A stretch of 64,000 nucleotides of DNA from Methylophilus sp. 42. Lineage in GTDB: Bacteria > Pseudomonadota > Gammaproteobacteria > Burkholderiales > Methylophilaceae. A model generated the notes under the pieces. That model searched no databases, was not told the DNA's origin, and saw only the letters and a list, made by a program, of their open reading frames with translations. The DNA lies in NCBI RefSeq assembly GCF_000384155.1, contig NZ_KB913031.1:2239092-2303091 (forward strand), written 5' to 3'. Position numbers and translations under genes: made by a program. Positions 38,600-42,638 of this stretch are shown here, piece by piece; the first letter of the stretch is position 1, and every line of letters starts with the position of its first letter.

Positions 38600-39847
38600 T
38601 TATTTGCCGTAGACCGGGAATTTGTCGGCCAAAGCATGTACTTTGGCTTTGACTGCTACAATCACTTCTGCATTTTCCGGATTATCCAGTACGTCAGCGA
38701 TCAGGTTGGCCACTTGCTCGGCTTCAGCCTCTTTAAAGCCACGGGTGGTAATCGCTGGCGAACCGATACGGATACCGGAGGTCACGAATGGGCTCTCTGG
38801 GTCATTAGGAATCGCATTCTTGTTCACAGTAATGTGCGCCTGGCCCAGGAAGGCGTCAGCCGCTTTACCGGTCAAGCCTTTAGGACGCAGGTCTACCAGG
38901 AACACGTGTGACTCAGTGCGGCCAGAAATAATGCGCAAGCCACGTGCCGCCAGGGTTTTAGCCATGGCGCTGGCGTTTTTCAATACTTGCTCCTGATATA
39001 CCTTGAACTCAGGTTGTGCAGCCTCCAGGAAGGCGGTTGCTTTACCAGCGATGACATGCATCAACGGACCACCTTGCAAGCTTGGGAATACGTTGGAGTT
39101 GATTGATTTTTCAAACTCGGCTTTGGCCATGATGATGCCGCCACGTGGACCACGCAATGTTTTGTGTGTAGTAGAAGTGACGAAATCAGCATGCGGCACC
39201 GGGTTCGGGTACACACCGGCCGCGATCAGGCCAGAGTAATGCGCCATATCGACCATGAAATAAGCACCGACTTTTTTAGCGATTTCGGCCATGCGTGCCC
39301 AGTCAAAACGCAGGGCGTACGCAGAGGCACCACCAATCAGCAGTTTTGGTTTGCACTCAATGGCAATGCGCTCCATTTCATCGTAGTCAATTTCTTCTTT
39401 GTCGTTCAAGCCATAAGGCACGATATTGAACAATTTACCGGACAAGTTGGCCGGGGAACCGTGGGTCAGGTGACCACCGTGGCCCAGGTTCATCCCCATC
39501 ACGGTATCGCCTGGTTTCAGGATGGAGAAATACACCGCCTGGTTGGCCTGTGAACCAGAGTGCGGTTGCACGTTAGCATACTCAGCGCCGTACAGTGCTT
39601 TCAGGCGGTCAATCGCCAATTGTTCTACTTGATCAACAAACTCACAGCCACCGTAAAAACGCTTGCCCGGATAACCTTCCGCATACTTGTTAGTCAGTTG
39701 CGAGCCCTGCGCTTCCATCACGGCCGGGCTGGTGTAGTTCTCTGAGGCAATCAGTTCAATATGCTGATGTTGACGTTCGACTTCGGAAGAAATCATTGTG
39801 GCTAATGCCGGGTCTGCAGCGCTTAAGTTTCTTGAAAAGCTAAACAT
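38600..39847 (-). CDS. glyA: serine hydroxymethyltransferase
   Basis: This 415-aa PLP enzyme interconverts serine and glycine with tetrahydrofolate and is central to C1 metabolism. The PLP-lysine motif [17 protein letters not shown] (about residue 225) and [16 protein letters not shown] are clear. The ATG at 39847 ([10 protein letters not shown]) is preferred over one three codons upstream. A -10-like TAAAAT lies near 39890 on the minus strand. It is upstream of nrdR in the same unit. Confidence 0.97.
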
Positions 39848-40022
39848 GACGATCAAGTTTCCGTATCAATAACAATAAAGCGTAATTTTACCATGAGGCG
39901 ACCATGGCATGCACCTTTAGCGTCAGGCTCGCCAAGTCGGCCTGTTTTTCTGGGCTGATACGTGTGTTAGATGTGCATAGGGCCGATGCAAGAAGGTAAC
40001 TGGTATTTATGTCAGGGATGGA

Positions 40023-40059
40023 TGCGCCAGCATTGCACGCACTGCACCAAATCAGTGCA
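40023..40059. promoter_or_regulatory. tandem NtrC-type sites
   Basis: TGCACCAAATCAGTGCA at 40043-40059 has the TGCAC-N7-GTGCA form of a strong NtrC site. A weaker second copy, TGCGCCAGCATTGCACG, begins 20 bases upstream at 40023, two helical turns away. They lie about 120 and 140 bases before the predicted sigma-54 start at 40172. Confidence 0.65.
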
Positions 40060-40145
40060 CACAATCAAACAGTTGCTGATCGTGCAGCAGGCAATAAAAT
40101 CCTAAAATGAGACTATCTTATTGATTTAAATGTAATTATCAAACC

Positions 40146-40161
40146 TGGCACAGCTTATGCT
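40146..40161 (+). promoter_or_regulatory. strong sigma-54 promoter
   Basis: TGGCACAGCTTATGCT matches the sigma-54 consensus (TGGCAC-N5-TTGCW) at all positions but one within the two boxes, with exact -24/-12 spacing. No coding region lies downstream on this strand, only a short segment and a terminator. Confidence 0.75.
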
Positions 40162-40171
40162 TAGTAGTAAC

Positions 40172-40230
40172 TGTAAGCGTATATCTCCAAAATCGCTCCC
40201 TAAACCCAACTTCGGTTGGGTTCTTTTTTT
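40172..40230 (+). ncRNA. candidate NtrC/sigma-54-dependent small RNA
   Basis: From the predicted start at about 40172 the transcript would run about 59 nt to the T-tract of an intrinsic terminator. It has a 30-nt unpaired 5' part containing UCUCCAAAAUCGCUCCC, which is complementary to Shine-Dalgarno-like GGAG sequences. A UUCG-capped terminator stem follows. There is no open frame. It lies in a gap between glyA and an AsmA gene that are both on the opposite strand, so the promoter and terminator have no other evident purpose. Confidence 0.6.
40203..40230 (+). terminator. intrinsic terminator with UUCG tetraloop
   Basis: AACCCAAC-TTCG-GTTGGGTT followed by CTTTTTTT gives an eight-pair stem with an extra-stable C(UUCG)G loop. 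The T-tract is only on the plus-strand side, so it serves the small transcript and not the minus-strand AsmA gene. Confidence 0.9.
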
Positions 40231-40251
40231 GTGGTCGCCCGCAACCGCCCA

Positions 40252-42297
40252 TTAATGCTTGCGTGCTTTAAGTTGTTGCAGCGTCTGCTCGCAACCTGCA
40301 TCCGTCACTTCCGGCGTACTGCCCGGGTCAAGAAAAGGCAGAATCGCCGCAAATGGATTGATCAGCGCCAATAGCACACCTCCCGCAACGCGTGCAGCAA
40401 TCGGCCCGGGACTCAGTGACACTTTCGGGTCGACAAACGGCCCGGTGACAAGGATGGGTGAACGCACCGTCAACGGTGAGAAGTTTTTCGGGCTGGCTTG
40501 CAACTTGAGGTTGAGTTGCTCCTGGCCCAGATTAATATCGCCAAGAATGTTCACGGTGGTCACCGGTGTATCTATGATGGCGGCTTCTGGCGTTAGCACG
40601 CCCTGCTTGGCATGCCACCCCATGGCCGCACATTGCATGGGTAAGGGTTGATCGCCTTTAATCAACACACCCACGGCTTGCGCAATATCCAGGCCTGCAG
40701 CTTCCACCACCAGGTGTGAGATTTCACCCTGGCGCACCATTAGCGCCAGCTGACCATCCAACGATTTAAGTAACGCGGCCGTAGAGCGGCCACGGCCTTG
40801 TAACTTGGCTTTACCGTTTAACTTACCTGAGATATAGGCTGGTGCCGGACTCGACGACTGTTTGGCTGACGGTGGTTGCTTACCTGGTGCCTTGTTATCG
40901 GCAGGCGTCACTTTCAACCATTGCTCCAGCCGAATATCGCGCACGGCCAACTGTATATCCCATTCAGGCGCAGGCGGTGGCGATAAATCGGCATTGCTGG
41001 AGTCATGTGCATCAATACTCAGTGCACCTGTCAGTGTGCCTTGTGCGGTATTGGCCTCTAGTTCAGCCAGGCTTAATTTGTGTTTAATCAAGGTCAAACG
41101 CAATTTCAAAGGTGAAATCCGTTGCTTAAATGCATGACCTAAATCAACCGCATCCAGATGTACATCAATATCTGCATTCATCCGCCCGTAAGTCGTAAAA
41201 TCCAGTGACTCGTCCGGGAACAGCTTGCCGGGATGCGTTTTGGCGGCCGGATTATCTTGTGTCGCCCCGAATGCGGGGGCCAAATCGGCCAGCATGAGTA
41301 GTGAGCCTTGCAACTTGCCACGCAGCATAGGCGTTTCAGGCGCAAAGTCATAGACAAACTGCCCGGATAAACGGCTATGCCCAATATGTGCCGAGGGAAT
41401 ACTCACCTGCCATTGGTCTATGCCTTTTTCAATATCGGCACTGACTTTAAACGAAGCGGTCCGTGGAAAAGTCAGGTCAAGCAAATCGCCTACGTCAGCC
41501 AACGATGCGCCTTTGACTTCAACGTTGCCTTTCACGCGTTGCGTACCGAACAAGTCATACACCGCGCCACGAAATTGTGCGTTAACCGCGCCATATTTCA
41601 ACCAGCCTTGAGAATTAATAGGCGGAGACTTACTATCTTGGGTCGCCACTGGCAAGAAACCTTGTGTCACTAGCTCCCCTTGTATGGGCAGCTTGCGAAA
41701 TTGACCATTCACCTTAACCCTGGATTCCGGCGTGGCCAGATGCTCCCCCTCCTCGGTAAAAAATGTCACGGCCAGTTGTGCATTGGTCACAGCATCGGCG
41801 ACTTTTGCCTGGCCCTGATTCACCGCCAGTTGCTCAATCAGTGGAAAAGGCCGTGGCGGGCCGCTATCATCCAGCTCAAACTCCCAACTCGCATGCCTGT
41901 CTGCACGGCGAAGCAGATAGGCATTCAGTTGATCCGCACGAATTGCTTCAATACGGTAAGGATCGGTTTCCTTGAGCGACCATAAATCACGATAACGCAA
42001 CGCCAGGTCCAGCCCGTGTGCATCGACAAAGTAAGGCGCATCAAAGCCTTCTGGTGCCGCGAGCTTTAAGCCACCCACTTGCAGGCGGATGCCGCCCAGC
42101 AATTGCAAACGAAACGGGCGCTCAATCTCGACAGATCGGTGCAATTTATCTTGCAGCAATTGTTGTAACGGTTGGCGCAAAAACGGCCAGCCGGCGACTT
42201 CACACACGATCACGGCTAACACCAGCGCAAGCAAGCTTCCGATTAGCCATCTGGTGATAGGTGCAGATTTTTTTGTTGTTATTTCGGTCTCATTCAT
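40252..42297 (-). CDS. AsmA family protein
   Basis: This 681-aa protein has one N-terminal membrane anchor (about residues 17-38) and a large periplasmic region. AsmA-like segments appear at both ends: RPFRLQLLGGIRLQVGGLKL near the start and KLNGKAKLQGRGRSTAALLKSLDGQLALMVRQG in the C-terminal third. A Pro/Ser/Lys-rich linker lies at about residues 465-490. AsmA-type proteins are thought to bridge membranes in phospholipid transport to the outer membrane. This one stands alone. Confidence 0.85.
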   Translation of the reverse strand: MNETEITTKKSAPITRWLIGSLLALVLAVIVCEVAGWPFLRQPLQQLLQDKLHRSVEIERPFRLQLLGGIRLQVGGLKLAAPEGFDAPYFVDAHGLDLALRYRDLWSLKETDPYRIEAIRADQLNAYLLRRADRHASWEFELDDSGPPRPFPLIEQLAVNQGQAKVADAVTNAQLAVTFFTEEGEHLATPESRVKVNGQFRKLPIQGELVTQGFLPVATQDSKSPPINSQGWLKYGAVNAQFRGAVYDLFGTQRVKGNVEVKGASLADVGDLLDLTFPRTASFKVSADIEKGIDQWQVSIPSAHIGHSRLSGQFVYDFAPETPMLRGKLQGSLLMLADLAPAFGATQDNPAAKTHPGKLFPDESLDFTTYGRMNADIDVHLDAVDLGHAFKQRISPLKLRLTLIKHKLSLAELEANTAQGTLTGALSIDAHDSSNADLSPPPAPEWDIQLAVRDIRLEQWLKVTPADNKAPGKQPPSAKQSSSPAPAYISGKLNGKAKLQGRGRSTAALLKSLDGQLALMVRQGEISHLVVEAAGLDIAQAVGVLIKGDQPLPMQCAAMGWHAKQGVLTPEAAIIDTPVTTVNILGDINLGQEQLNLKLQASPKNFSPLTVRSPILVTGPFVDPKVSLSPGPIAARVAGGVLLALINPFAAILPFLDPGSTPEVTDAGCEQTLQQLKARKH

Positions 42298-42443: not shown

Positions 42444-42638
42444 ATGAAATGGACCGACAGTCAGCGGATCGCTGAAGAACTGTACGACAAACATCCTGAC
42501 ATAGACCCCAAAACCATCCGCTTTACTGACCTGATGCAATGGGTACTGGCGTTGGACGGCTTTGATGATGAGCCTGCCCATTGCGGCGAAAAAATCCTCG
42601 AAGCCATTCAGCTGGCCTGGATAGAAGAAGCTGAGTAA
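42444..42638 (+). CDS. iscX: Fe-S cluster assembly protein IscX
   Basis: This 64-aa acidic protein matches IscX/Yfh[29 protein letters not shown] and a C-terminal [12 protein letters not shown]. It binds IscS and iron and modulates cluster assembly. No isc operon is next to it. TATAAT at 42395-42400 is a good -10 box. Its stop touches the ATG of the phosphomannomutase gene with no gap. Confidence 0.93.

Follow-up and report, generated by a model that had tools for sequence, protein, structure and literature searches.

Does the intergenic region beside glyA in Methylophilus sp. 42 encode a small RNA of its own and, if so, which message does it act on and what switches it on? We addressed this in the 64,000-nucleotide stretch that contains the region (the window), starting from a first-pass annotation that had proposed a small transcription unit with a palindrome, a sigma-54 promoter and a UUCG-capped terminator. 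All of these elements are present at the places given for them, as judged against the known consensus sequences for sigma-54, NtrC, IHF and Shine-Dalgarno sites. In window coordinates, the locus comprises:

38600-39856, minus strand: glyA.
40043-40059, no strand assigned: NtrC-type enhancer box TGCACCAAATCAGTGCA, 12/14 against the consensus and centred about -121 from the predicted start.
40114-40126, plus strand: IHF-like site TATCTTATTGATT between enhancer and promoter, picked by eye and imperfect against YAAN4TTGATW.
40146-40161, plus strand: predicted sigma-54 promoter TGGCACAGCTTATGCT, with GG at -25/-24 and GC at -13/-12.
40172-40230, plus strand: small RNA of about 58 nt, from the predicted start to the end of the T run.
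40176-40197, plus strand: 5' hairpin AGCG-UAUAUCUCCAAAAU-CGCU, presenting the seed loop.
40183-40191, plus strand: seed AUCUCCAAA.
40203-40230, plus strand: intrinsic terminator, with stem AACCCAAC-UUCG-GUUGGGUU at 40203-40222 and then a T run.
40252-42297, minus strand: AsmA-like gene, with no NCBIfam match.
42444-42638, plus strand: iscX (TIGR03412).

The transcription start, predicted at about 40172, was placed from the promoter, 12 nt past the -12 GC. The resulting RNA is predicted to fold into a short hairpin at its 5' end, followed by a C-rich linker and then the terminator, whose stem begins at about +31, in agreement with the distance of some 30 bases first estimated. The fold of the segment is 3.4-3.8 standard deviations below that of shuffled sequences (0/200 shuffles as good). 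As had been noted, the unit appears non-coding: no plus-strand ORF of at least 40 aa lies in the body of the RNA, and the nearby plus-strand ORFs of at least that length either end before the promoter (39971-40105) or start inside the terminator (40216-40374). The proposal that UCUCCAAAAUCGCUCCC is unpaired held only in part: its CGCU pairs with AGCG at 40176-40179, while the seed loop AUCUCCAAA is indeed unpaired.

We then looked for the unit in relatives. BLAST with 231 bases gave matches in 38/187 family genomes at E<=0.01, some of them by chance (L033, L035 and L037 were dropped because they look like AT-rich chance matches), and in 20/22 genomes of the window's genus. A covariance search across Methylophilaceae, which had been put forward with the original proposal, was run with models of the transcript alone (R1 from 27 sequences, R2 from 63; the E-values of both are rough). 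R2 returned 65 clear members among the 187 genomes of the family (E<=3e-6), found in 21/22 genomes of the window's genus and, for the other genera, numbering 4 in g7, 27 in g18 and 13 in g19. The only genome of the window's genus without the RNA is G079, whose contig stops 6 bases past glyA. The exact 20-mer ATATCTCCAAAATCGCTCCC, which tests the core sequence only, occurred in 11 stretches among 84,980 genomes, ten of them titled with Methylophilaceae genera or the family name and one with a betaproteobacterial bin.

The alignment that we analysed holds 63 members, the 27 seeds and 36 found by the model (L061, L063 and L065 included); G164 and G167, in which UCUCC and the promoter are present, are counted in the 65 and lie outside the 63. 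Forty model matches had been fetched, and seven were dropped by eye before counting: L118, L123, L128 and L130 are without UCUCC, and L116, L132 and L127 have UCUCC and are without the promoter motif, L116 and L132 being second matches in genomes that already hold a true copy. UCUCC is found in 63/63 aligned members, an invariance that is partly selected because the seed-finding pattern required UCUCC and members were recognised partly by it. Changes on both sides were seen for 8/11 base pairs. The covariation score was 0.482, where shuffles gave 0.136 and sliding the partners gave no more than 0.085; the alignment had been fitted to the model, and this works in favour of the structure. The stem of the 5' hairpin is paired in 93.5% of cells, and in some g18 members the loop stem reads GCA-UGC in place of GCG-CGC. 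The terminator, UUCG-capped in the window, is variable but covarying in relatives (98.2% of cells paired; 6/7 pairs changed on both sides). At a loose threshold (E<=0.1), R1 matched 140/187 family and 195/399 order genomes, and the weak matches inspected were ordinary terminators. Among the 22 loci of the order that we inspected (L067-L088) there was no sigma-54 motif within 60 bases upstream, with one match at -159.

Because the covariance models did not contain the promoter, its recurrence is a largely independent test. A -24/-12 motif within 45 bases upstream was present in 61/63 aligned members and in 35/36 of the accepted members found by the model, or 35/43 if the seven dropped matches, none of which has it, are included. 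As controls, 5,040 random windows gave 1.3-1.6%, and 248 further windows taken from the same intergenic regions gave 0.8%. The spacing from the -12 C to UCUCC is steady, at 19-25 nt, and a motif resembling the IHF-like site recurs by eye at the same place in relatives. As for the exceptions, L030 (G120) has an intact RNA with unrelated DNA, possibly inserted, where the promoter and enhancer should be, while L103 carries a variant, GGCCC...TTGC, accepted by a slightly wider pattern. Conservation of promoter and terminator among relatives, as the first-pass annotation had expected, is thus seen for both. A transcript-only model that finds members, covariation and promoter recurrence together make it extremely improbable that the locus is a set of chance motifs or an untranscribed conserved DNA element.

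The surroundings of the RNA raise another question, namely whether it is free or part of a longer message. A glyA match lies divergently upstream in 53/63 members, and in 41/63 an iscX start is recognisable 63-182 nt past the RNA end on the same strand; iscX is the immediate downstream neighbour in most relatives outside the closest group. The absence of a downstream gene on the same strand, claimed from the window, therefore needs amending: iscX is close in many relatives, and in the window the AsmA-like gene stands in between. A cis-acting leader or attenuator of iscX would account for such an arrangement, but we regard this as very unlikely. The AsmA-like gene adjoins the RNA only in the window and its closest relatives, where 2 kb of opposite-strand gene separate the RNA from iscX; the RNA is intact at eight loci with no glyA or iscX match in the stretch examined (L061, L099, L100, L102, L122, L124, L129 and L131); and the minimum-energy folds contain no competing antiterminator.

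Beyond these members, glyA was present in 29/30 further genomes searched, and five to seven of the 29 carry diverged versions of the RNA at the glyA-iscX locus. In G174, G175, G178, G185 and G034 the sigma-54 promoter, UCUCC and terminator are there in diverged form, and in G050 and G051 a promoter-like site and a terminator are found without UCUCC; all seven are weak by model (E from 0.0003 to 0.4). No RNA version was found at the glyA locus of the remaining further genomes, small-genome genera included (G079 is not assessable), and a weak match in G143 was rejected as a member. Taken together, conservation, covariation and promoter recurrence strongly support a predicted sigma-54-dependent, trans-acting small RNA of about 58 nt, with a loop able to mask ribosome sites, much as the first-pass annotation had it.

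The kind of regulator is known: a sigma-54-driven RNA that masks a ribosome site. Rfam 15 gave no match in the 64-kb window, the top score over the segment being 19.9 bits for SdsR_RyeB (RF00111), far below the gathering score of 38. NrsZ of Pseudomonas, an orphan small RNA that answers to limiting nitrogen through sigma-54/NtrC-type control, is comparable in this respect, but by its description it is longer, processed and built of repeated hairpins, and it belongs to a different clade. Qrr of Vibrio and CrcZ/CrcY of Pseudomonas share the combination of sigma-54 and a response-regulator enhancer driving a small RNA, and Qrr RNAs also pair with ribosome sites; their regulators, seeds and targets are different, and they too have no Rfam match in the window. 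The anti-hemB RNA (RF02837) resembles ours in its C-rich stretches and matches the RNA model weakly in G054 and G048, where it scores above its gathering score (L343:1539-1626 and L344:1443-1531), but it is a separate known element located elsewhere that the window does not match. By title and the start of the abstract, open-licence PMC papers on xoxF sRNA or Methylotenera small RNA contain no description of this RNA. Within the reach of our searches, the RNA family is new, and so are its target and its switch of activator.

We sought a target for the seed, a point on which we go beyond the first-pass annotation. XoxF is a central enzyme of methanol use in these bacteria, and the control of its level in the family is poorly understood. 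The pattern TTGGAGATN3-12ATG has 20 matches in the window's genome (two pairs overlap), against 2 for a control pattern, and those before recognisable starts include xoxF (CTTTGGAGATCAATATG), a porin, guaB, rplN and a nusA-like gene (the long ORF behind one TTGGAGAT match, in L166, which we take to be nusA). The seed can form 9 contiguous pairs with the ribosome site of xoxF, UUUGGAGAU. Dehydrogenases were called XoxF through TIGR03075 plus the DYD motif, which is typical of XoxF, and a XoxF match was found in 37/38 genomes searched. In all RNA-bearing core-clade genomes with a close xoxF (20/20), the gene is preceded by UUUGGAGA. Outside the core clade, 13 of the 14 genomes inspected have UAUGGAG before xoxF and G178 has UACGGAG; as the UUUGG/UAUGG split coincides with one clade, it represents one event.

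Variation at the site follows variation in the RNA. The base after GGAGA is U in 17 genomes whose RNA has AUCUCC and A in three whose RNA has UUCUCC (17/0/0/3 of 20). Among these 20, the combination of UUCUCC in the RNA with GGAGAA in the target is found only in G042, G041 and G115, which lie in two distinct places of the glyA tree. UUCUCC is also the reading of the RNA in G077, G169, G043 and G044. Similarly, in G178 the RNA reads AUCUCCG and the target CGGAGAU. Contiguous pairing between RNA and xoxF extends over 11-12 bases in G042, G172 and G173, 8-9 in 16 genomes and 6 in G041. At the level of genera, the duplex energies of cognate pairs sum to -138.6, and only 23 of 362,880 permutations are lower (mean -117.5); the test covers 25 genomes in 9 genera, relatedness is not fully corrected for and the energies ignore accessibility. 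Genome by genome the picture is weaker: in 3/25 genomes (G128, G173 and G174) the cognate target does no better than the targets of other genera do on average, and in 7/25 the RNAs of other genera are, on average, the better partners for the target.

Where a second xoxF copy has an unrelated leader, UUUGGAGAUA is found in seven cases and CGGAGAUAUA in three, and three more copies (L307, L335 and L336) have UUGGAGAUU. Eight dehydrogenase copies in RNA-bearing genomes are without the site (L312, L316, L317, L328, L331, L333, L334 and L337); the more distant copies read GGAGG (L316 and L334) or GGGGA (L317, L328, L331 and L333). In G165 there is no close xoxF copy, and the nearest paralogue is without the site. 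G143, inside the core clade, keeps UUUGGAGAU though no RNA copy was found there.

GGAGA is itself a Shine-Dalgarno sequence, and UCUCC complements any such site. From this one could suspect a general anti-Shine-Dalgarno RNA under sigma-54 that regulates other messages (porin, guaB, rplN, nusA or many weak ones), the match to xoxF being incidental. Indeed, TTGGAGAU also precedes the porin, guaB, rplN and nusA-like genes in the window's genome. The start of the porin gene was readable in 13/20 fetched regions, plus the window's genome, and its site is TTGGAGAT in G000, G063, G066 and G078 (the four inspected members of the window's genus), in G171 and in G050, which lies outside the core clade. 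Three g18 members inspected, all of which carry the RNA, have TTAGGAGA instead. The flanks of the xoxF site, on the other hand, track the RNA outside the Shine-Dalgarno core and recur in copies with unrelated leaders. We therefore consider an incidental match rather unlikely. That the porin is an additional target is plausible for the window's genus and for G171, though not across the clade. Part of the covariation could still be mimicked by a genome-wide preference in ribosome sites, because the porin site of G042 is also GGAGAA.

Several methanol dehydrogenase copies in genera without the core RNA have UAUGGAGA / CUAUGGAGA in common, and the sharing of CUAUGGAGA there suggests that the xoxF site is probably under another constraint too. 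In such genera, dehydrogenase copies with unrelated leaders (L323, L324, L327, L329, L332 and L339) have CTATGGAGA before their start codon, a hint of another trans-acting factor. A widely shared AACC(C)TTAGT is present in the main xoxF leader as well.

What, then, would activate the RNA? Tandem NtrC-like palindromes and a role in nitrogen stress had been proposed. The box TGCACCAAATCAGTGCA at 40043-40059 is conserved in place (0/200 shuffles as good), but the others are weak. Within the window's genus, 17/20 assessable members score at least 11/14 for an NtrC-type box, with at most 5/200 shuffles as good, and the best matches all lie 123-136 bases before the model start. The nitrogen part of the proposal thus fits the window's genus. 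In most members of g18, in part of g19 and in the diverged genera, the region has, by eye, TGGTTG-N4-CAACCA palindromes, often in tandem. In four g18 members (L028, L031, L094 and L097) an NtrC-like match, partial at 11/14, is also found closer to the promoter, at -94, so that NtrC may act there too; other g18 members score lower.

In the window's genome, glnA has two NtrC-type boxes, TGCACAATTTTGGTGC and TGCACACAAATAGTGCA, before a sigma-54 promoter, and ntrC is present, making NtrC the likely activator in this genus. In G114, glnA and an ntrB-like gene (named by position) have such boxes as well. A sigma-54 regulator other than NtrC, responding for example to metals, would mean that the RNA of the window's genus is not a nitrogen-stress RNA. 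In its favour, the perfect GCACCAN3TGGTGC sites of the window's genome, three in number, have as neighbours an RND-type operon, a gene for TolC-type efflux and one of the GGDEF/EAL type, and in other genera the RNA enhancer resembles that of a response regulator linked to a TonB receptor. The boxes at glnA and the ntrB-like gene speak against it, as does the NtrC consensus, which is this very box sequence, and we consider such a regulator unlikely. NtrC remains our likely candidate in the window's genus, on the strength of these sequence matches.

The TGGTTGN4CAACCA palindrome is more frequent than its reversed control in two genomes (21 vs 9 and 17 vs 4) and is common to the RNA enhancer and a TonB-receptor/response-regulator operon. 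The regulator has an orthologue in 13/13 genomes searched, and its DNA-recognition helix is nearly identical in the window's genus. The simplest reading of these patterns is that the activator of the RNA was swapped between the TonB-linked regulator and NtrC, since many genera carry the palindrome of that operon; which of the two states is older is suggested by the wider spread of TGGTTGN4CAACCA. The pair of TonB receptor and NtrC-family response regulator is conserved across Methylophilaceae, with TGGTTGN4CAACCA sites and sigma-54 promoters in several cases (the region of L228:2555 in G114; L233, L243-L255 and L369-L377); it is probably autoregulated and possibly constitutes a lanthanide or PQQ uptake regulon. 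Other palindromes of this type lie directly upstream of genes for PQQ-associated beta-propellers (L229 and L232; TIGR03866 matches that fall short of the cut-off), for a two-PepSY-domain protein (L230) and for proteins resembling TonB receptors (L233 and L234); near one site, on the opposite strand, are a quinoprotein-associated SoxYZ carrier and a further beta-propeller.

The reading that we favour, to which we give a probability of about two in three, is that the RNA, driven by NtrC and sigma-54, represses translation of xoxF and so throttles methanol oxidation under nitrogen shortage. Sigma-54 RNA polymerase would transcribe the trans-acting RNA of about 58 nt, which in the window's genus would be expected when ammonium is scarce, judging from the enhancer. 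The loop of the 5' hairpin, AUCUCCAAA, would pair with the Shine-Dalgarno region of xoxF, UUUGGAGAU, as RNA-target covariation suggests, and in several species with a second xoxF copy too. Ribosome binding would be blocked, as the position of the site implies, and less lanthanide-dependent methanol dehydrogenase would be made. Methanol oxidation, and with it the production of formaldehyde, would be throttled whenever growth runs short of nitrogen. Other genera apparently place the RNA under a different sigma-54 activator.

Published expression data can be set beside this scheme. According to PMC5723320, the methanol dehydrogenase that is expressed depends on the nitrogen source, and in the metatranscriptome xoxF expression of Methylophilus is higher on ammonium than on nitrate, a pattern that agrees with NtrC control. 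The same study reports higher xoxF under all regimens for strains 7, 73s and 11, described as other Methylophilaceae; strain 11 (G066) has the NtrC-type box, yet this pattern does not fit. If our reading is right, a 58-nt RNA supplies a mechanism linking the nitrogen source to the choice of methanol dehydrogenase; methanol use would be tied to nitrogen or metal supply through a link that can be tested with single-base changes, and the RNA would be an example of a small RNA that changed its master and kept its target.

A different starting point, possible but on the doubtful side, is an ancestral lanthanide- or PQQ-economy RNA that was later re-wired to NtrC. The response regulator beside the TonB-dependent receptor would sense a shortage of metal or cofactor and, through tandem TGGTTGN4CAACCA sites and sigma-54, would induce uptake. 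The same sites would induce the RNA, stopping the synthesis of metal-requiring XoxF. An ancestor of the window's genus would have swapped the enhancer of the RNA for NtrC boxes, and therefore the same RNA would now couple methanol oxidation to nitrogen. Such sparing is reminiscent of RyhB/PrrF, in which an RNA induced by scarcity lowers the users of the scarce resource; these differ in being Fur-regulated and linked to iron, and have no Rfam match in the window. LanPepSY, a protein with two PepSY domains, is a lanthanide binder of Methylobacillus according to PMC12482762 and PMC11845868, and the protein in L230 likewise has two PepSY domains. A simple lanthanide reading is weakened because, according to PMC11845868, two two-component systems of M. 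flagellatus are unchanged in level with lanthanum. Should the ancestral-economy scheme hold, a conserved small RNA would have exchanged its regulator in nature and, judging by our searches, would be the first one described in lanthanide metabolism.

Other observations concern neighbouring systems. In the window's genome, perfect NtrC-type boxes stand before RND/TolC-type efflux genes at L236:2174 and L237:2141, and an ORF of 113-119 aa of no known family precedes these genes. In G114, sigma-54 promoters with TGGTTGN4CAACCA enhancers at L230:5580-6000 (plus strand) and about 2080 (minus strand) are followed by long non-coding stretches, one of which ends in a terminator-like hairpin and has no ORF of at least 90 aa on that strand. 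Finally, L071 and L072, from another family of the order (G218 and G262), contain small-RNA-like units made of GCTTATCTCCAATACACCCC and a terminator, two per genome and about 110-120 bases apart; they have a similar UCUCC but no sigma-54 promoter, and by eye their promoter is sigma-70-like.
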